Shown: piece by piece, positions 4,737 through 12,774 of the stretch
How the letters are laid out: every line of letters starts with the position of its first letter
Position numbering within the stretch: position 1 is the first letter of the stretch
Source of the DNA: a virus
DNA: 26,612 bases
Reading direction: 5' to 3' (one strand)
Virus record (IMG/VR): IMGVR_UViG_3300043464_002556
Location: 1-26,612 of that record
Translations under genes and position numbers: made by a program
The notes under the pieces: generated by a model
Databases searched by the model: none
The model's input: the letters and a program-made list of their open reading frames with translations, nothing else
Told to the model about the DNA's origin: nothing

Positions 4737-5384
4737 TCACCAAGAATCCTTAGCAACTTCACCAGTAGTGAAGAACTTCTCTTGCTTCTCATATGGCAAT
4801 GTCATATAGAGAGAATCAAGGTCATGCATTGGCAATGACTTAATATCCTCTGGCATCTCAGTTGATTCCAATGGAATCAAAGTGTAGTTAGTGTCAGAAG
4901 GGCCGGATCCTGTTCTAGCAATCTTAAAGTAGCGGTCAGTGATTGTGCCGAACTCCTTTGCGTATTCAATAAGGATAAGACCGACATGGCGCTGGTTAAA
5001 GGTAGTGTCAAGAACTCTAGGCTCCCAAACACCCGGTTCAACTTCAACAGCAATGTTGATTACCAAGTGAGGCTTTGAACGCCAAGCCTTATCGTGGACA
5101 GATTGCTCTGTAGCCCAACAACGATAGTTAAACTTTGACAAACCAGCTGTTGATGCTGCTCGCCACTTCCAGTTAATTGGTGAAGTAACGACTGGAATTG
5201 TCTTAGCAGTTCCGACTTCCTCATCATAGTGATGAGCATCTTCTGTTAATTCCTGACGGAATCGAATACGGTATGACTCTCCTGAGCCAACCGTAAAGTA
5301 TTTCTTGGCACCTGTTTTCTGTCCGCTCTGTGCTGGAACGACATTCTTTTCCAGGTCTTTTAATGATTTAATTGATTGAAACAT
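4737..5384 (-). CDS. Putative single-stranded DNA-binding protein
   Basis: A 215-residue cytoplasmic protein with no signal peptide or membrane segment. It is rich in aromatic and basic residues in likely beta strands, for example INWKWRAAST (70-79) and FNYRCWATEQ (85-94). A segment around 151-173 contains RYFKIARTGSGPSDTNYTLI, a pattern I associate with phage ssDNA-binding proteins of the gp32-like kind that sit next to helicase and primase genes; this is recollection of a family pattern, not a search result. The position between primase and polymerase fits an SSB that coats lagging-strand template. AGGAG six bases before the ATG supports the start at 5384. It lacks the acidic tip of host SSB proteins, so it is not a standard OB-fold host-type SSB. 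It could instead be another replication accessory factor. Confidence 0.55.
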   Translation of the reverse strand: MFQSIKSLKDLEKNVVPAQSGQKTGAKKYFTVGSGESYRIRFRQELTEDAHHYDEEVGTAKTIPVVTSPINWKWRAASTAGLSKFNYRCWATEQSVHDKAWRSKPHLVINIAVEVEPGVWEPRVLDTTFNQRHVGLILIEYAKEFGTITDRYFKIARTGSGPSDTNYTLIPLESTEMPEDIKSLPMHDLDSLYMTLPYEKQEKFFTTGEVAKDSW

Positions 5385-5392
5385 TTTTTCTC

Positions 5393-6334
5393 CTATAATG
5401 TATGTTTTTTGTTATTTACAATTTCTTGTATTTGTTTACTTGTCATTTCACCAGGATCTTTACACCCAGTGTTATTTTCTACCACATAAATTTCTTTACC
5501 TTGGCAGAGATTTATTATATCATCACGCATGGCATTTCCGGCATCATCATTGTCAGAAAATATGGTGATTTGATCAAAGCACCTTTTTATAATCTTGATT
5601 TGATTTGCAGACACTTGAGCGCCTAGTGTTGATACAACATTTGGGAAACCGGCCTGATGAACCATCATCGCATCAACACTGCCCTCAACAATAATGCAGG
5701 AATCATACTTCTTTGCATTTTGTATGTTAAACAATACATCAGCTCTTTTAAACCCCTTGTTATAAAGGTAACGAGGCTCTTGCTCCGGTTTTATTGCCCT
5801 ACCAATGAAGCCAACCAGTTTGTAGTTTTGACTTCTAACAGGTATGACAATTCTTTCTTTTACTTTTGAGTACCCAATTTCAAAGTATTCTAGTGTCTCA
5901 TAACTGAGACCTCTATCGTGAAACATTTTGATACTCAAAAGATCTTCTTGGTTTGAATAGTCAATCTCCACATCGGAGATATCTAACTCTTCAATGTAAT
6001 CATTTTTTCTAAATCCGTTTTCAATCTGCTTTTGGATTGCTACAGGATCTAGGCTAACATCTCTGCCGTATGGCTTGCCAGTTATGTGCTTATATAACTG
6101 TCTGAAGTTTCCTTTTTTACCACATGATGGATTGAAACACTGCCATAAGCCAGTTTTAGTGTTAATAAAAAATGCTGGGCTATTTCTATTCTTATGGAAT
6201 GGGCAATACAAATTAAACTCTTGACCGTTTTGAGATTCAATCATTATATTTGACTTCTCAAAAAGTTCACGAATTTGCGATTCCATACTATATACAGAAT
6301 ATGATTTTAAACTTGAAGATATCCCGATTGGCAT
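5393..6334 (-). CDS. dnaG: DnaG-like DNA primase (zinc finger plus TOPRIM)
   Basis: A 313-residue primase that would synthesise RNA primers at the phage fork. A CHC2-type zinc finger is clear: LYCPFH (42-47), then WQCFNPSCGKKGN (64-76), giving ligands C44, H47, C66 and C71. The TOPRIM fold follows, with IIVEGSVDAM (214-223, metal-binding E217) and TIFSDNDDAG (257-266, acidic D261 and D263). The protein lacks the C-terminal helicase-binding domain of bacterial DnaG and is short in its middle domain, so it is a compact phage form. The start is uncertain. ATG at 6334 has AAGGA nine bases upstream and is used here. A second ATG at 6286 (residue 17) lies just after the stop of the small upstream gene and leaves a more typical primase N-terminus. 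The stop is followed closely by the ssDNA-binding gene. Confidence 0.92.
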   Translation of the reverse strand: MPIGISSSLKSYSVYSMESQIRELFEKSNIMIESQNGQEFNLYCPFHKNRNSPAFFINTKTGLWQCFNPSCGKKGNFRQLYKHITGKPYGRDVSLDPVAIQKQIENGFRKNDYIEELDISDVEIDYSNQEDLLSIKMFHDRGLSYETLEYFEIGYSKVKERIVIPVRSQNYKLVGFIGRAIKPEQEPRYLYNKGFKRADVLFNIQNAKKYDSCIIVEGSVDAMMVHQAGFPNVVSTLGAQVSANQIKIIKRCFDQITIFSDNDDAGNAMRDDIINLCQGKEIYVVENNTGCKDPGEMTSKQIQEIVNNKKHTL

Positions 6335-6467
6335 CGTAATCAGTCCTTAAAATTGTTTTATTGAACTTGCCATTAATAGCTTTCCATTCATCTTCCATCC
6401 AAGGTCTTAACCTTGCAATAGTTTCAATGTCTTTGGCTTCACCTTCAATAACTTTCTTATTCTTCAT
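6288..6467 (-). CDS. Small unknown protein between helicase and primase
   Basis: The 135-base gap between the helicase stop and the primase ATG is covered by an open frame of 59 codons beginning MKNKKVIEGEAKDIETIARL at ATG 6467, two bases after the helicase TAA. A longer version starting at 6482 would overlap the helicase end. The protein is charged, has a segment RPWMEDEWKAING with two tryptophans, and ends in hydrophobic KIIFCI. I do not recognise a family. The stop at 6288-6290 is one base from an alternative primase ATG at 6286, so the small gene and primase would fit together like other operon members if that start is used. With the primase start at 6334 they overlap by 47 bases. No strong ribosome site is visible, so coupling to the helicase is likely if it is translated. 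Confidence 0.5.
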   Translation of the reverse strand: MKNKKVIEGEAKDIETIARLRPWMEDEWKAINGKFNKTILRTDYDANRDIFKFKIIFCI

Positions 6468-6469
6468 TT

Positions 6470-7687
6470 TTATATGTCCCATTCTTCTTCCCATTTTCCT
6501 GTCTCTAGGTTCCATCTTAAAAAGAAACCAAATTGACTTGATCTTCTAACCTTTCTTGATACGACTTGAAATAAGTCTGAATTATACTCACGCTGAATTG
6601 CAAGAACTAAGTCAGCATCATAAGCCAACTGCTTACTCCATGCAACTTCTTCCAATTCTGGCGGTCTTTCTGAGTGACCCTCGCTCATTGTTACAGCAGC
6701 AACATCGATAATGGGCACTCCGTTTTTAACAGCCATTCTCTTGAATGCTTTTGAAAGGTTCTTTGCCTTCTCTGTTTCATTTCTAGCACCAGAAGCATCA
6801 TCAAACAAGCCGTGATAATCCAAGATAACAATGTCTGGTCTATACTGATCAATCTTGGCTTGCACCATGTTTTGATCTGCTGTTTCAAGACCCTCTGATG
6901 TTACAAGATGTATTGAGTGTTTACCTTCAAATGTTTCTTCAGCCCATTTTTCATAACCATCAACAATAGATGGGTTGGCACGAACAAGATCTGTGTTAGT
7001 AAATGTACCACTGCCATTATTCAGCAGTGTGTCAAGCCTTTGCCCCTCTTGCTTCTTATTCATTTCTAGAGAAATGATCAATGGTCTGTAGCCAGCTTTC
7101 CAAGCATTTACAGCAAATAGTCTTGCAATAAATGACTTACCAACACCTGTCCAACCTAGAAGAACAATAAAATCTCCCGGTTGCCAACCGCCAAACTGTT
7201 TATCAATAACTTTAATTCCACTAGGAATACCTTGCAGTTCACCAGTACCTTTTTCTGATCTTTCACGCAAATCAATTGCTCTATCTTTCCATTCACCTAC
7301 CAAGTCAGTATCTTTAAGATTGCTTGAATACTTGAACAAGGCAGATGTGTTCTCCATCAAATAAGCTAACGCTTCTTTCGGACCGGCTTCGCTAAGTAAG
7401 CCATTAGTCTTTGATACAAGAACTCTTGTCTGATAGGCAAGTGAACCTTTCTTAGCCTCTTCAATGTAGTACTTGATAGGTTCAGGAGTAGCGTAAAACT
7501 CAAACTCAGGGTGGTGTTGTTTTACAGTTTCTTTTGATGGAACTTTTTTATGCTCGTCATAGTGAGCAACGATGAAGTTCCAAACATCTCTATATTCAAT
7601 GAAGACATTTTCAACACCCTCATTTACAGCCGTTACATAATCATTAGATTGAATAAGTGAATTCAATAATCTAACTTCGTAATTCAT
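6470..7687 (-). CDS. dnaB: DnaB-like replicative helicase
   Basis: A 405-residue RecA-fold helicase expected to unwind the phage fork as a hexamer. The N-terminal part (about 1-125) is helical and resembles the DnaB N-domain. The motor domain begins around GIPSGIKVIDKQFGGWQPGD (153-172), the usual DnaB entry segment. Walker A is GWTGVGKS (178-185), the conserved glutamate lies in SLEMN (206-210), and Walker B is IVILDY (286-291). SRKVRRSS (377-384) fits the late nucleotide-contacting loop. At 405 residues it is a little shorter than bacterial DnaB (about 450-470). The ATG overlaps the preceding gene's stop (ATGA) and has no clear Shine-Dalgarno sequence, suggesting re-initiation by terminating ribosomes. 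It sits with primase, polymerase and a putative ssDNA-binding protein in one operon. Confidence 0.93.
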   Translation of the reverse strand: MNYEVRLLNSLIQSNDYVTAVNEGVENVFIEYRDVWNFIVAHYDEHKKVPSKETVKQHHPEFEFYATPEPIKYYIEEAKKGSLAYQTRVLVSKTNGLLSEAGPKEALAYLMENTSALFKYSSNLKDTDLVGEWKDRAIDLRERSEKGTGELQGIPSGIKVIDKQFGGWQPGDFIVLLGWTGVGKSFIARLFAVNAWKAGYRPLIISLEMNKKQEGQRLDTLLNNGSGTFTNTDLVRANPSIVDGYEKWAEETFEGKHSIHLVTSEGLETADQNMVQAKIDQYRPDIVILDYHGLFDDASGARNETEKAKNLSKAFKRMAVKNGVPIIDVAAVTMSEGHSERPPELEEVAWSKQLAYDADLVLAIQREYNSDLFQVVSRKVRRSSQFGFFLRWNLETGKWEEEWDI

Positions 7688-7995
7688 TCGTTAACCATTC
7701 TATCGTGAGTATCTCTCACAATTTGTCTAAATCTTTCTTTGGACTCTGTTTCTTGTTTTACTTTTTCAGTAAATTTTTTTGATTCAACAGCAAAATCAAA
7801 CATTAAAAATGGGCCTGTCTTACTTTTGACAAAATAATCAACAGTATCCATCAACAAATCACCATCATAATGTTCTGTCAGGGCATCAGCAACCGCTTCT
7901 TGACGAGGCGAATCAGGAATAAAAAGTTTACCTGATTTTTTGCAGGATTCCTTTAAGCACTGAATTAGCTCTTGACCTGTTATTTGCTTTTTCAC
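7684..7995 (-). CDS. Small protein upstream of helicase, possible loader or accessory
   Basis: A 103-residue, highly charged, probably all-helical protein with no transmembrane segment. It begins MKKQITGQELIQCLKESCKK and has DYFVKSKTGPFLMFDFAV around residues 53-70, followed by a lysine/glutamate-rich helix to the end. I do not recognise it with certainty. Its place immediately before dnaB, with an ATGA overlap, and the aromatic-rich helix before a charged tail are reminiscent of phage helicase-loader or replication-accessory proteins, but this is inference from position. The start is GTG at 7995, preceded by AAGGAGGT with a 5-base spacer, the strongest ribosome site in the window. That site and the first 68 bases of the gene lie inside the C-terminal coding part of the WhiB-like gene. 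Confidence 0.75.
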   Translation of the reverse strand: MKKQITGQELIQCLKESCKKSGKLFIPDSPRQEAVADALTEHYDGDLLMDTVDYFVKSKTGPFLMFDFAVESKKFTEKVKQETESKERFRQIVRDTHDRMVNE

Positions 7996-8224
7996 TATTC
8001 ACCTCCTTCCATGTTAATTGAAGGTATTCAAACTCTGATATTCCACCGTTCACACCGTAGAAGTTCCCAGTATTCCACATACTAACAAAACATTCAGTAC
8101 GGACTGTGCATTCTTTACAGATTTCTTTAGCACTGTCAACATCTTCTTTTTTGTAAGAGAACCACAAGTTTCTATTCTCATGATCTAGACAGAGTGCTGA
8201 TTCTTTCCAATTACTTTGCATCAT
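7928..8224 (-). CDS. whiB: WhiB-like iron-sulfur transcription factor
   Basis: A 98-residue protein with the Wbl signature. Four cysteines are arranged C12, C36, C39 and C45 (C-x23-C-x2-C-x5-C), the ligand set for a [4Fe-4S] cluster. They are followed by the G-V-x-G-G turn, here GVNGG (57-61) instead of the usual GVWGG, and then a charged tail. In actinobacteria Wbl proteins bind the primary sigma factor and change promoter choice; phage copies can redirect host transcription or block superinfection. The missing turn tryptophan is unusual, because that residue packs against sigma region 4 in characterised family members. The start could be either of two adjacent ATGs at 8224 or 8221; the site upstream is weak and the gene overlaps its predecessor by 14 bases. 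The C-terminal part overlaps the next gene by 68 bases. It is the best evidence in the window for an actinobacterial host. Confidence 0.9.
   Translation of the reverse strand: MMQSNWKESALCLDHENRNLWFSYKKEDVDSAKEICKECTVRTECFVSMWNTGNFYGVNGGISEFEYLQLTWKEVNSEKANNRSRANSVLKGILQKIR
8001..8008 (-). promoter_or_regulatory. Strong Shine-Dalgarno site inside the WhiB-like gene
   Basis: AAGGAGGT on the minus strand, five bases before the GTG at 7995. In the WhiB-like frame these bases encode part of WKEV, so one stretch serves both as coding sequence and as the ribosome site for the next gene. It decides the GTG start of the downstream gene and implies a 68-base gene overlap. Confidence 0.8.
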
Positions 8225-8411
8225 CTAGTTCTTGCAATTTGGCTTCAATTTGCTCATCAATTGAATTCCACAATTTCTGCCAAGCTGCTTCATCATCTAA
8301 ACTTGAGGCTTTGCATTTAGCACCAGCATCAAGCCTTAGAGATTCGTAGTTGCCAAGATTTTTCGTAATCCCGACAGATGCCCAAATTTCTACTTCATTA
8401 TTTTCTGACAT
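8211..8411 (-). CDS. Small conserved-type phage protein, unknown function
   Basis: A 66-residue acidic protein. Its N-terminal half includes VEIWASVGITKNLGNYESLR (7-26), reminiscent of a pattern (sVGxtxNLGxyESxrxdxG) found in small phage proteins of unknown role; I cannot name the family with confidence. The C-terminal half is a likely amphipathic helix or short coiled coil (from AAWQKLWNSIDEQIEAKLQE to the end). A clear ribosome site, AAGGA five bases before the ATG, supports the start. The gene follows the MerR-type gene with its stop only one base away and overlaps the WhiB-like gene by 14 bases, so the three are probably made from one transcript. It may be a partner of a neighbouring regulator or nucleic-acid enzyme; nothing in the sequence decides this. 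Confidence 0.7.
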   Translation of the reverse strand: MSENNEVEIWASVGITKNLGNYESLRLDAGAKCKASSLDDEAAWQKLWNSIDEQIEAKLQELDDAK

Positions 8412-8412
8412 G

Positions 8413-8838
8413 TTATTCCTTTATTTTGTTTTCTATTTTCTGCTCAAGCAGTTTTATGTTTATATTTTTCTTCACTGGTCGCCCAGGAATCCTTGAATTA
8501 AAGAACTCTACCATAGTGTAAACATCTTGTTCTCTGTAGAATCTCCATGAGGAATAGCCATTATACATATCCCCAAACTTTTCTGCACTTGGAATCAAAG
8601 ATCTTTTTTCATATTTTCTTATGGTGTCCGGTCTTTTCTCAACAATCTTAGCAACTTCTCCAACAGTATATATCCGATAAAGAATCAATTCATTCTGTTG
8701 GTATGGAAGTTCTATTATTTCATTTGTATCCAATCTTTCAACATAAATTTTATTAGCTTTTTTATTAATCTTTTTTAACTTGACAATAGTATCAGCATAA
8801 GTATAAAACTTGTTAGTTGTCAGATTATTTCTGACCAT
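8413..8838 (-). CDS. MerR-type helix-turn-helix DNA-binding protein
   Basis: A 141-residue protein whose second half is a MerR-like winged helix: YTVGEVAKIVEKRPDTIRKY (57-76) is the helix-turn-helix, then LIPSAEK and WRFYREQDVYTMVEFF (98-113), where R99-F100-Y101 matches the conserved wing segment before the second helix pair. The basic sequence GRPVKK follows. There is no long dimerisation coiled coil or effector domain as in full MerR regulators, so it is closer to the small phage and excisionase-like members. Residues 1-55 form a separate lysine-rich, probably beta-stranded module that I do not recognise. GAGAGG five bases before the ATG supports the start, with a 14-base overlap with the zinc-ribbon gene. 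Next to a WhiB-like gene, it probably contributes to phage transcription control. A DNA-architectural role is an alternative. Confidence 0.8.
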   Translation of the reverse strand: MVRNNLTTNKFYTYADTIVKLKKINKKANKIYVERLDTNEIIELPYQQNELILYRIYTVGEVAKIVEKRPDTIRKYEKRSLIPSAEKFGDMYNGYSSWRFYREQDVYTMVEFFNSRIPGRPVKKNINIKLLEQKIENKIKE

Positions 8839-9019
8839 GACCGCCTCTCTTCTCTGCTAAAAGCTTAAGAAACCTTTGCAGTCTTGGGACTTCAATATCT
8901 TTGGAGTCTGCACATATAACGCATGTTACATCAACATAGTATTTGCCATAAGCATAGTACTGATCACCAATAAACTTTAGGCCTCCACAATTTGAGCACT
9001 TAAGTTTTATTGCATGCAT
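8825..9019 (-). CDS. Small zinc-ribbon protein
   Basis: A 64-residue protein beginning MHAIKLKCSNCGGLKFIGDQ. Two CxxC pairs, C8/C11 and C33/C36, separated by an aromatic-rich strand region (YYAYGKYYVDV), form a typical zinc ribbon. The C-terminal half is a basic helix ending RGGHGQK. No known family is recognisable beyond that. The frame extends upstream to another ATG at 9076, but that version adds a leucine-rich stretch coded over the 3' end of the phosphoesterase gene. The ATG at 9019 lies one base after the phosphoesterase stop and starts just before the zinc ribbon, so I prefer it. Small zinc ribbons of this sort in phages often bind nucleic acid or RNA polymerase; together with the MerR-type and WhiB-like neighbours a regulatory role is plausible but unproven. 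Confidence 0.7.
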   Translation of the reverse strand: MHAIKLKCSNCGGLKFIGDQYYAYGKYYVDVTCVICADSKDIEVPRLQRFLKLLAEKRGGHGQK

Positions 9020-9020
9020 A

Positions 9021-10223
9021 TCAATCCAACCAGCAGTTGTATTCAGCAGTAACAATACCTTTAATTGGATGTACAAACATTAATGGTTGAGATGCACGAC
9101 CTACTGCTCCCAACACCTCAATCGCATATGTATTAGTTGATTCAGGACTACCTGAAATACGACACTGGACAGTATTGAATGTCATCTTAGTCGGTGTATG
9201 GAAATGTCCAAAATAAACATCGTCAAACGCATCAACTAGATTACCATCTTTATCCTTGCGTTCAATACCGCCGATCTTCCATCCATAAACTTTCTTTTGA
9301 AATGAGTAGAACGAAGAAAGACTCCCAAACTGATCTCCATGAATAAGCAAAGACTTATAATTTCCGATTGCATCAATGGCATACCAATATCGTTCTCCAC
9401 GACCATCGGGGATGTTGAACTTAACTCTAGGGTTGCTTTCAAACATCAACTGAACAATTCTGTACAACATTCTGTCAGCATTTGTTTCAGGATCGTGATT
9501 TCTTCTTGACTTTCCACCAATTGCACCATGATTTCCAATTACACCAGTGAATGTAATTGTTTCAAAGTTTTCCAACATCTTATTGATGAAGTTCTTCATA
9601 ATTCTTGGTCCATCAACAGTAACCTGTCTGTAAAGACCACTATCAATCAAAAACTCTTGACCGGGGAAGATTAATTCACCTTCTACAATATCTCCAAGAC
9701 ACCAAATCCTTAATTCCTTAACAGGATGATCTTGTCTTTGAATCTCAGTTAGATGAATAATCTTATCTGCATATTGATTGATTCTCTGTTCACAAACTGC
9801 TGAGTTGTAATCAGGAGTTACCTTTCCTAACTGCCAGTCAGCCAAGACAGCAACAGCAACCTCTTCAGAAACTTTTCTTGTGTCTTTTTTGGGTGCTGGT
9901 ACTTTAGGAACAGTGTATAAACTTCCCTGTTCAATTTCTTCCTTAACAGCTCTGTAAACAGCGTCTGCTAAGTGAACTTCTTTACTCTTAAGTTTATCGT
10001 ATTCTTGAAGTAACTTTGTATAACTAACTTTTAATTCTGATTCAGTACTGATCTCCTTACCAGTTTTGATATCAATTGGCATATCTATAATTCCATTTTC
10101 TTTTCTAAATTTACATAGACCCAAAGAGTCTATGCTCTTGCGACAAGAAGCATCCGCATAACGCTGATTAGCAGTGTTTGGCTCAAATGTCTCGTTGCAA
10201 TTTTCTGCTGCGCAAATTTTCAT
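9021..10223 (-). CDS. Calcineurin-like metallophosphoesterase with N-terminal Cys-rich module
   Basis: A 400-residue protein with the full metallophosphoesterase signature. Counted from the ATG at 10223: D129 in ADWQLG, D178 in CLGDIVEG, N231/H232 in GNHG, H295 in IHGD, and H340/H342 in GHFH. These residues bind two metal ions and hydrolyse phosphodiesters or phosphomonoesters. The first 40 residues hold cysteines C4, C9, C27 and C37 in a C-x4-C...C pattern resembling a small zinc finger, then a charged linker to about residue 115. The domain may act on DNA, as SbcD/Mre11 nucleases do, but no partner ATPase is visible. The frame also extends to a TTG at 10262 overlapping the HNH stop. I prefer ATG 10223 because the Cys-rich module begins there and an extended -10 element lies seven bases upstream. 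It opens the regulation/replication half of the window. Confidence 0.88.
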   Translation of the reverse strand: MKICAAENCNETFEPNTANQRYADASCRKSIDSLGLCKFRKENGIIDMPIDIKTGKEISTESELKVSYTKLLQEYDKLKSKEVHLADAVYRAVKEEIEQGSLYTVPKVPAPKKDTRKVSEEVAVAVLADWQLGKVTPDYNSAVCEQRINQYADKIIHLTEIQRQDHPVKELRIWCLGDIVEGELIFPGQEFLIDSGLYRQVTVDGPRIMKNFINKMLENFETITFTGVIGNHGAIGGKSRRNHDPETNADRMLYRIVQLMFESNPRVKFNIPDGRGERYWYAIDAIGNYKSLLIHGDQFGSLSSFYSFQKKVYGWKIGGIERKDKDGNLVDAFDDVYFGHFHTPTKMTFNTVQCRISGSPESTNTYAIEVLGAVGRASQPLMFVHPIKGIVTAEYNCWLD

Positions 10224-10230
10224 AGGGATA

Positions 10231-10239
10231 ATTATAACA
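10231..10239 (-). promoter_or_regulatory. Extended -10 promoter, probably leaderless
   Basis: TGTTATAAT on the minus strand is a perfect extended -10 element (TG-n-TATAAT). It ends seven bases before the ATG at 10223, so transcription would begin at or next to the start codon and give a leaderless mRNA, which is common in actinobacteria. A -35-like TTGAGG lies 20 bases further up, too far to be convincing. It sits at the boundary of tail genes and the regulation/replication cluster. Confidence 0.6.
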
Positions 10240-10258
10240 CCCTCTGGGCAGACTTTCC

Positions 10259-10699
10259 TCAATCCATTGAATTATATTTTCGAGGCATTGATGTTCTTTT
10301 TTTAAGAGGTTTTTTAACTGGCTTCTGGCGCTCATTCATGTTCTTCCTGAGTTTATCACGATGTTCTTGAGATGGTCTTTTACCTTCACGGTGAATTGCG
10401 CTATGCTCTTGCTGAGAGCAAAGGAAAAGGTTTTCTAGTCGGTTATCAGCTTTGATTTCATTGATATGATGAACACTTTCCCAACTTTTAAGATATCGAC
10501 CAAGAACTTCTTCAATCAAAGCCCTGTGCTCATAAATATAGCCTTTAATGTTGGCCGGATGTTCTGGTCTTAAAATCCTTACATAACCTTTGTCATCAAT
10601 GTACTTACCGCCATTATAGTTTGAGTTCATTTCTCCTAAACCGGTTCGGTCACTCCACTCAATGTCATCTCTTTTAGATGCCAGTGGTCTTGGGGGCAT
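10259..10699 (-). CDS. HNH endonuclease
   Basis: A 146-residue protein. The segment GYVRILRPEHPANIKGYIYE (38-57) and the following HRALIEEVLGR match the strand-helix entry of the HNH_3 type. The core is VHHINEIKADNRLENLFLCS (76-95) with H77/H78, N86 and N90, followed by QQEHSAIHRE with H99 and H103, so the metal and catalytic positions look intact. The C-terminal 40 residues are very basic, rich in Lys/Arg/Pro, and would bind DNA. AAGGA five bases before the ATG at 10699 supports the start, which lies just after the stop of the preceding tail-region gene. Standing alone at the end of the tail module, it is most likely a free-standing homing endonuclease or other phage nicking nuclease. A packaging role, known for HNH proteins next to terminase, is not supported by this position. 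Confidence 0.88.
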   Translation of the reverse strand: MPPRPLASKRDDIEWSDRTGLGEMNSNYNGGKYIDDKGYVRILRPEHPANIKGYIYEHRALIEEVLGRYLKSWESVHHINEIKADNRLENLFLCSQQEHSAIHREGKRPSQEHRDKLRKNMNERQKPVKKPLKKRTSMPRKYNSMD

Positions 10700-10701
10700 A
10701 A

Positions 10702-11373
10702 TTATCCTTGTCCACCAATATCTTCAATGTAGAATTGCATCTTTGACTCATTGCATGGGATTACGAATGTTGATGGGTTAGCAGCACTATTACCACTATC
10801 TCTATAGATTTCAACATTGAATACACCACTGCCGTTTGCCCCTGTGATTCCTGTACCAGTTGTTGTTACAAAACTATAAGAGCCAGCACCAAAATATGAA
10901 GGGAAGGATGATCCTCTTATCTGCGTGTTTGCAGTCGTTGGTGGACTTGTTGTTGAAGCATCAAGGAATGTATGAATTGGTTGACTAATCTTCCAAGTGT
11001 AAAGAGTCGTTGCAGTATTAGCGTTACTTCCCTGACTTACTCTTAAAAGATAAACAGAATCTTCCTGACCCGGTGTTGAGACTTTGATTCCCGGAAATGT
11101 AAGTGTTAACTTAACATAACGACTACCGGGAAGTGTTACTGAATTATCTGGATTTCCAGATCCTTCATTCTTAAGATTAATAATTTCACTATAGGCATTC
11201 ATTGAATTAGTAGTAACAGCAGTTGTCACTTCTTTAATCTTAATCAAACCCCTTGGGTTGTCATCAGTTGCATCTTTTACCTGCTGGATGTTCTCAGTCA
11301 TCTGCTGAAGACGGTCAGCAGAAATTGGTGTTCCTAGTGTCCAAGCGACTTGTACATAATTCTCATAAGCCAT
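10702..11373 (-). CDS. Putative tail-tip or fibre-associated virion protein
   Basis: A 223-residue protein of unknown family. The N-terminus includes YVQVAWTLGTPISADRLQQM (6-25) followed by TENIQQVKDATDDNPRG, a layout I associate with small structural proteins near the end of tail operons in actinobacterial phages. The rest is Ser/Thr/Asn/Gly-rich and likely all-beta, with alternating hydrophobic strands such as RYVKLTLTFPGIKV and KMQFYIEDIG, consistent with a secreted-face or receptor-contacting module. No signal peptide, membrane helix or enzyme motif is visible. It directly follows the S74 fibre and precedes the HNH gene. There is no Shine-Dalgarno sequence at normal spacing; instead a TATAAT lies eight bases before the ATG, so it may have its own leaderless promoter. 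A virion role is inferred from place and composition. Confidence 0.7.
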   Translation of the reverse strand: MAYENYVQVAWTLGTPISADRLQQMTENIQQVKDATDDNPRGLIKIKEVTTAVTTNSMNAYSEIINLKNEGSGNPDNSVTLPGSRYVKLTLTFPGIKVSTPGQEDSVYLLRVSQGSNANTATTLYTWKISQPIHTFLDASTTSPPTTANTQIRGSSFPSYFGAGSYSFVTTTGTGITGANGSGVFNVEIYRDSGNSAANPSTFVIPCNESKMQFYIEDIGGQG

Positions 11374-11381
11374 ATCTATCT

Positions 11382-11387
11382 ATTATA
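11382..11387 (-). promoter_or_regulatory. Candidate -10 element for a leaderless transcript
   Basis: TATAAT on the minus strand ends eight bases before the ATG at 11373, overlapping the stop of the tail-fibre gene. The gene has no ribosome site at normal distance (GAGGA is about 16 bases away), so a leaderless start is plausible. No -35 match was found and the element is only six bases in AT-rich DNA, so chance is possible. Confidence 0.35.
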
Positions 11388-12774
11388 CATCCTCTAGAGC
11401 CTGTAATCTAGCCTCTAAATCCTCTACTTTAGCAATCAGTTCTTGGACAGCTTTAATTGTTAAAGAAAGCAGAGCTAAGTCTTTATACATAACAGGTCTA
11501 ATGTGCTGAAAGTCTTCCTCTACGGAAAATGGCAATCTACCGTCAATAGATTCTCGGTATTCTGGGCTATCAAACTCATAAGAAACCAAGGAGCCTTCAA
11601 AATTCTTTTGAACATCTATAATATCTTCAAGAATAAAACCAACTTCCTTATTTATTTGCTTTAAAGCATATGTATAATCATCATCATTTTTATTTCTTTT
11701 ATATGTAAATTTTACAGGTTTTAATTCTTTAATTAAGTCAAAAACAGATTCATTAATATATTCAATATTTTCTTTTATCTGTATTGTTGAACTTTGTTTT
11801 TGAACATATCCACTCGAGTTTAAAACAAGAACTGTTCCAGAGTCGGTGCCAATATTTGCCATATAAATTTCACCATCATTTCTAACACCGAAATAATGAG
11901 TGTTAGCTGAGTTCTGCGCTCTGAATGACCACCCTGAGCCTGCGGTACTACTACCTCTAACCTTAAATGTTGTTGCTCCTCCGTCACCTGTTGCCCCATT
12001 GACTCGAACATTATTACCAACTGATAAATCATCACCAATAATTATTGTTCCATTTGAATATAATGTTGTGCTACCAGCAGATATGTTGGAAGTGTTAATG
12101 TTCCAACCACCAATTGAACCTGAAGTTGCTGTCACAGATCCTGTTAAGCTTGCATTAGTTGCCGAAACATTTCCTTCTGGAGTAACACTAAAGTTTGTGC
12201 TAACTATCGCACCATTTGAAAGAATATCAATCCCCGGTGTACTTACCGAGTTTGCAGTTATTGCTCCACGAATTGATGCACTGGAAAACTCTGCACTACC
12301 AGCATAAGTTATTGCCCATCCAGCAGTTCCCTGACCTGTTATAACTCCATTTGCAGCAATTGTTCCATCATAATTATTACTTCTAATAATATTATTAATT
12401 AAAACAATATTCGATGATAACTCATTTGATGTTATTGTATTAGCAGAAATTTCATCAGCTGTGATAGTATTAGCTTGAATCTGAGTAGCTGTAATAGTAT
12501 TTGCTCTTATACTTTTACCACTTAATGTGTCTGGAGCTAAACTTAATCCAGCAGGTGTTAAAACTTTAGAATTAACAATTCTAATAACCCATTCTTCCAT
12601 AGCAGATTGATTGACACTCTGTCTATTGATTCTTGTTTGTGAACCTGTATAGCCTAGGGAAAAATCAAACAATGAATACGAACCAACATCGATAATTGTT
12701 GAATTAATACCATTATGGGAATGACCTCCTGAACCAAAAAAAGATATTCCGTTTTCTGATGTTCTTGTTGTCAT
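11383..12774 (-). CDS. Tail fibre with C-terminal S74 intramolecular chaperone
   Basis: A 463-residue fibre. The N-terminal 90 residues probably attach to the tail tip. Residues 91-120 are three decapeptide repeats (ANTITATQIQ, ANTITADEIS, ANTITSNELS). The middle is a Ser/Thr/Asn/Gly beta-rich shaft including GWNI and GWSF turns (223-226, 281-284). From about 325 a peptidase S74 (intramolecular chaperone autoprocessing) domain begins: S329 and K334 in SSTIQIKENI have the five-residue Ser-Lys spacing of the endosialidase dyad, then LKPVKFTYKR and EVGFILEDI. This domain assists trimer folding and then cleaves itself off. The last 30 residues are a short coiled coil. GAGGAAGG four bases before the ATG, and an ATGA overlap with the hub gene, support the start. 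It is likely a receptor-binding fibre. Confidence 0.88.
   Translation of the reverse strand: MTTRTSENGISFFGSGGHSHNGINSTIIDVGSYSLFDFSLGYTGSQTRINRQSVNQSAMEEWVIRIVNSKVLTPAGLSLAPDTLSGKSIRANTITATQIQANTITADEISANTITSNELSSNIVLINNIIRSNNYDGTIAANGVITGQGTAGWAITYAGSAEFSSASIRGAITANSVSTPGIDILSNGAIVSTNFSVTPEGNVSATNASLTGSVTATSGSIGGWNINTSNISAGSTTLYSNGTIIIGDDLSVGNNVRVNGATGDGGATTFKVRGSSTAGSGWSFRAQNSANTHYFGVRNDGEIYMANIGTDSGTVLVLNSSGYVQKQSSTIQIKENIEYINESVFDLIKELKPVKFTYKRNKNDDDYTYALKQINKEVGFILEDIIDVQKNFEGSLVSYEFDSPEYRESIDGRLPFSVEEDFQHIRPVMYKDLALLSLTIKAVQELIAKVEDLEARLQALEDV
12415..12504 (-). repeat. Three decapeptide repeats in tail fibre
   Basis: Three consecutive 30-base units encode ANTITATQIQ, ANTITADEIS and ANTITSNELS (fibre residues 91-120). 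Each starts with ANTIT and continues with a variable polar-hydrophobic pentad, the kind of register expected in a trimeric beta-helical or coiled fibre shaft. At the DNA level the units share short matches around GTAATAGTATT-like runs but have diverged. Confidence 0.85.

Follow-up and report, generated by a model that had tools for sequence, protein, structure and literature searches.

Results

Genes and promoter element at the phosphoesterase locus

We analysed a linear IMG/VR virus fragment of 26.6 kb (26,612 nt, IMGVR_UViG_3300043464_002556), hereafter the window, whose minus strand carries an HNH endonuclease gene, a phosphoesterase gene and a cluster of replication-side genes. The features considered are:

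10259..10699, minus strand: HNH endonuclease gene (HNH_3; PF13392, E 1.9e-9), 146 aa
10224..10258, minus strand: 35-nt intergenic stretch from the HNH stop to the phosphoesterase ATG, with the entire promoter inside it
10231..10239, minus strand: extended -10 element TGTTATAAT, with the hexamer TATAAT at 10236-10231 (read from the sequence)
10224..10230, minus strand: 7-nt spacer TATCCCT between the -10 and the ATG
10223-10221, minus strand: ATG start codon of the phosphoesterase
10223, minus strand: predicted transcription start, the A of the start codon (from the -10 spacing and the T-1/A+1 preference)
9021..10223, minus strand: phosphoesterase gene, a calcineurin-like metallophosphoesterase/exonuclease of 400 aa with an N-terminal four-Cys module (PHROG 284, invariant motifs)
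4737..9019, minus strand: Zn-ribbon, MerR-like, WhiB-like, helicase, primase and further genes, tightly packed (from ORF layout, start contexts and families)
10223..10699, minus strand: putative exchange cassette of HNH gene, promoter and start (from gene trees and the mosaic scan)

The phosphoesterase was identified by a profile match to the PHROG 284 exonuclease (E 1e-43), while no matches to its sequence were found in Pfam or PDB. Across 24 homologues the N-terminal Cys residues are invariant, as are metallophosphoesterase-type motifs (D129, GD178, GNH231-232, H295, GH340xH342). The gene order tail-HNH-phosphoesterase-Zn-MerR-WhiB-helicase is common to the lineages compared. Between 10223 and 4737 the genes lie close together and overlap, their starts are mostly SD or coupled, and no comparable promoter occurs; it is therefore plausible that the phosphoesterase promoter is the main promoter of the replication half, perhaps early or middle in infection, and 4737..9019 would probably be read from it. 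Beyond this cluster, a 62-nt gap between two replication-side genes (4737-4675) contains a hairpin-like GTCTG-GTAAAA-CAGAC.

The WhiB-like gene downstream of the phosphoesterase, together with a DNA polymerase whose best matches are in Streptomyces phages (~38% identity), points to an actinobacterial host. A scan of genome contigs returned seven loci only, in MAGs of mixed labels.

The minus strand around the phosphoesterase start reads GTGTTATAATTATCCCTATG, and the stretch from the promoter through the ATG (10239-10221) is TGTTATAATTATCCCTATG. A preliminary description of this DNA had reported a perfect TGnTATAAT seven bases before the ATG, which we confirmed, and had proposed a motif search for promoter, spacing and ATG together. 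In the window there was a single match to the whole string TGnTATAAT-N7-ATG against 0.04 expected, with the 9-mer TGTTATAAT alone near chance (2 matches; 1.56 expected). We found no SD at a usable distance before this ATG in the window.

The start codon is conserved among relatives

For comparison of starts we fetched a first set of 80 relatives. In all relatives with a complete start, the coding match opens at one shared start codon, ATG or, in a few, GTG. The ATG and the Cys module are retained among homologues; the 13-residue extension that a longer frame would add is broken by a stop or is unrelated in others. The TTG that would open this longer frame (10262) overlaps the TGA stop of the HNH gene and has no SD. 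The earlier description had taken the ATG as the likely start and the 13 extra residues as lacking recognisable features, and had named beforehand an alignment of the N terminus with homologues as the comparison capable of refuting it. In that alignment the 13 residues were not conserved, which favours a leaderless reading.

Homologues fall into two start classes

We classed a start as leaderless when a -10 hexamer ended 6-8 nt before the ATG with no SD, and as leadered when an SD was present. The first set divided into 33 leaderless and 47 leadered starts, with none fitting both definitions and none fitting neither. A larger set of 107 distinct homologues comprised 36 leaderless, 69 leadered and 2 unclassified starts, again with none in both classes; of the unclassified pair, L267, with its weak hexamer, resembles the leaderless class and L215, with its weak SD, the leadered class. 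Retention of the -10 at fixed spacing in 36/107 homologues supports the proposal that the phosphoesterase mRNA may be leaderless.

Across 18 leaderless lineages, the hexamer was kept at the leaderless spacing in all 18, with 7 nt to the ATG in 16 of them, as in the window, and 6 nt in the other 2. The base at -1 was T in 18/18, and the CCYT directly before the ATG was invariant (CCTT 12/18, CCCT 6/18), while the DNA upstream of about -17 was free to vary. Leaderless homologues thus have in common TATAAT and its spacing, together with CCYT ahead of the ATG and ATGAAAATTTG following it, and no SD sequence was found in them. In most of them a TG abuts the hexamer directly (GTGTATAAT), so that the extended -10 described earlier holds for TATAAT and its spacing but not for the TGn register. 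In leadered lineages the -10 lies mostly 20-36 nt upstream, far enough for a short leader to fit in between.

No conserved -35 box was seen in the leaderless lineages compared; a candidate TTGA ~20 nt upstream in some of them was discarded as part of the HNH stop region. The presence of a hairpin or terminator immediately 5' of the -10 was likewise rejected (mean fold z -0.36 ± 0.25, 18 lineages, not significant).

Several individual loci showed further features. The CCYT and the ATT used for Ile codon 3 (16/18 leaderless lineages; positions -4 to +11) are conserved beyond apparent promoter or protein need. In L251, L258, L263 and L266 (near 2490) only 8 nt separate the HNH stop from the ATG and the -10 hexamer overlaps this stop, so that part of the promoter lies within the endonuclease gene. 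In L029, L032, L043 and L073 (near 7430), where the phosphoesterase start is leadered, the Zn-ribbon gene has its own -10, TAAAAT, 6 nt before its ATG; in the window this gene is instead coupled to the phosphoesterase stop.

Candidate leaderless starts elsewhere in these phages

A -10 hexamer positioned to make the A of an ATG the first transcribed base would be expected to show the T-1/A+1 preference, as this is the pattern at transcription starts in sigma-70-type initiation. We sampled nine long contigs of related phages for ATG codons without an SD and with noncoding DNA upstream. At spacings of 6-8 nt we counted 36 -10 hexamers, where other spacings predict 11.8 (Poisson p 1e-8), the counts being approximate as starts were called with a simple ORF caller. 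T was at -1 in 29/36 of these candidates, phosphoesterase included; with the phosphoesterase left out, it was at -1 in 22/29, compared with 232/790 other starts (Fisher p 5e-7). Raw TATAAT-N6-8-ATG counts in 22 records were only mildly above those at other spacings, because most ATGs are not starts, and the gene-aware count was therefore used.

Other gene families in related contigs have the same -10/ATG layout. One family, beginning like MTTFEEQEIEITHEMIESWHPLIAMPCY, has a TATAAT-N6-8-ATG start in L091, L098, L103, L108, L115 and L124, and in several phages its start directly follows a T-run resembling a terminator tail. In the window, the tail gene at 10702-11373 on the minus strand has TATAAT 8 nt before its ATG (11373-11390) and lacks an SD. 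The TATAAT is retained in relatives, 6-8 nt from the same start, even where the upstream stop has moved (L012), and this start may be a second leaderless one.

Start type follows the HNH gene

We mapped start type onto gene trees of 31 lineages. On the HNH tree it changes once (branch support 99/97; 99% of bootstrap trees), and trees built from segments of this gene have 1 or 2 changes. On the phosphoesterase tree it changes 8 times, and the AU test rejects a single leaderless clade (p 1e-85); phosphoesterase residues 6-95 alone give 5 changes. The tail gene, which flanks the HNH gene opposite the phosphoesterase, gives 5 changes and again rejects a single leaderless clade (AU p 5e-8), while the helicase gives 6 and MerR 4. 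With 60 lineages, a set that includes the 31 which suggested the idea, there was 1 change on the HNH tree (bootstrap range 1-2), 9 on the phosphoesterase tree and 6 on the tail-gene tree. The dividing branch of the 60-lineage HNH tree was weakly supported (18/0) because distant marine forms attach on long branches. Judged from these trees, HNH type is predictive of the start type of the next gene, and the phosphoesterase gene seems to have switched repeatedly between leaderless and leadered starts in related phages.

Each of the nine contigs has a single copy of the HNH gene, and 31/31 lineages retain its histidine motif HHIN intact, together with the residues around it. By trees and mosaic scan, its history is discordant with both neighbours, and flanks have been exchanged along with it. 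We found no empty site lacking the HNH gene among the 107 distinct homologues, only allele replacement.

A nearest-relative scan identified mosaic loci. For L006 the nearest relatives are the leadered L020/L288 across the HNH gene and up to ~225 nt into the phosphoesterase gene, and beyond that point the leaderless L007/L012. L045 has leaderless relatives as its nearest to about +375 and thereafter the leadered L051, at 95% identity. L062 is leaderless-like from about -525 (the HNH gene start) to +75, with both flanks closest to leadered relatives. By their nearest relatives, these loci show HNH gene, promoter and first codons to have been exchanged as one block, with the 3' edge of the cassette in relatives at about +75 to +375 of the phosphoesterase gene.

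Discussion

From the motif and its conservation, the two start types, their linkage to HNH type and the mosaics, all features of sequence and phylogeny, we consider it likely that the phosphoesterase has a leaderless start and that an HNH-linked cassette carries its promoter and start, so that cassette swaps switch translation mode. The -10 would be positioned such that transcription begins on the A of the phosphoesterase AUG, and we infer that the resulting mRNA is translated leaderlessly, a mode common in actinobacteria. Together with the upstream HNH gene, promoter and start codon would form a small, jointly inherited cassette, of which the phage group appears to hold two types, one with a leaderless end and one with promoter, short leader and SD. 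The probable trigger of recombination is cutting of the other allele by the HNH enzyme, with co-conversion of the flank. A swap of cassettes would then switch the translation mode of the same gene.

The start might be leaderless without the cassette being active, the block having moved by ordinary homologous recombination with the HNH gene as a passenger. The missing empty site among the 107 homologues would fit this account, as would crossovers well inside the phosphoesterase gene (L045 near +375) and flanking genes conserved enough for recombination. However, the agreement between start type and HNH gene is almost perfect, in contrast to the discordance of both flanking genes, which suggests HNH as the centre of exchange, and we regard a passenger role as possible but rather doubtful. 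It is improbable that point mutations created and removed leaderless starts independently in each lineage, with the HNH linkage arising by chance: substitution between SD and leaderless starts is documented between orthologues (Zheng et al. 2011, PMC3160421), but the single change on the HNH tree compared with 8-9 on the phosphoesterase tree argues against such a history, as does the sharing of CCYT and ATGAAAATTTG by nearly all leaderless lineages.

It is also conceivable that the AT-rich string is not a promoter and merely keeps the start unstructured for SD-less translation from a long tail-operon mRNA. The phosphoesterase does lie downstream of tail genes on the same strand, with no strong terminator and no significant hairpin signal upstream of the -10. 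Yet hexamer and spacing are fixed while the flanks vary, T occupies -1, and the matching -10 shifts upstream where an SD is present, so that we hold this to be very improbable; leadered read-through mRNA from the tail operon could nevertheless be an additional supply of phosphoesterase. Translation from the TTG at 10262, with 13 extra residues, is scarcely credible: its frame is open in the window and L002, but runs into a stop or unrelated sequence in other homologues, and the codon overlaps the HNH stop with no SD before it.

Returning to the cassette proposal, we tentatively suggest, as an idea we would not yet favour, that a homing HNH cassette took over promoter and start codon from an essential gene on the replication side, that rival leaderless and leadered cassettes compete, and that their differing start sequences shield each from its own enzyme. 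In that case the way a phage gene is translated would be set by gene drive. More generally, the cassette reading suggests a route by which translation mode may evolve through the swap of a selfish cassette and not by slow mutation. The two classes also provide natural matched pairs, with the same gene at the same locus under leaderless or SD-led initiation, for a direct look at the effect of leaderless initiation, and leaderless starts would occur regularly across a large group of WhiB-encoding phages.

Leaderless genes of Actinobacteria, more than 20% of the total, have a -10 box ~10 nt before the start codon and no SD (PMC3160421; M. smegmatis, PMC7148126), and the phosphoesterase start in the window resembles them in both respects. 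Actinobacterial orthologues can also differ in start type, with SD-led replacing leaderless starts (Zheng et al. 2011, PMC3160421); unlike the history proposed for the phosphoesterase locus, this change is linked to no mobile cassette. Leaderless promoters were predicted in Cluster O mycobacteriophages (PMC4351075), in other phages and genes, and the portion of that report consulted describes no HNH link. A study identifying nuclease genes as marking the edges of genetic exchange between phages (PMC10448857) did not treat promoters or translation starts, the words 'promoter' and 'leaderless' being absent from its text. In the parts of the literature covered by our search, no description tied leaderless mRNA to homing endonucleases. 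Closest to the cassette proposed here are the free-standing homing endonucleases of T4 (seg, mob), which lie between essential genes and carry the promoter of the downstream gene, as with segG for gene 32 and the promoter between mobE and nrdB, with co-conversion of flanks (PMC2988022). They differ from this cassette, for which homing by the HNH enzyme is our proposal, in having no switch between leaderless and SD-led starts. Leaderless mRNAs and promoter-carrying homing endonucleases are thus each known, and their linkage to translation mode appears to be new.
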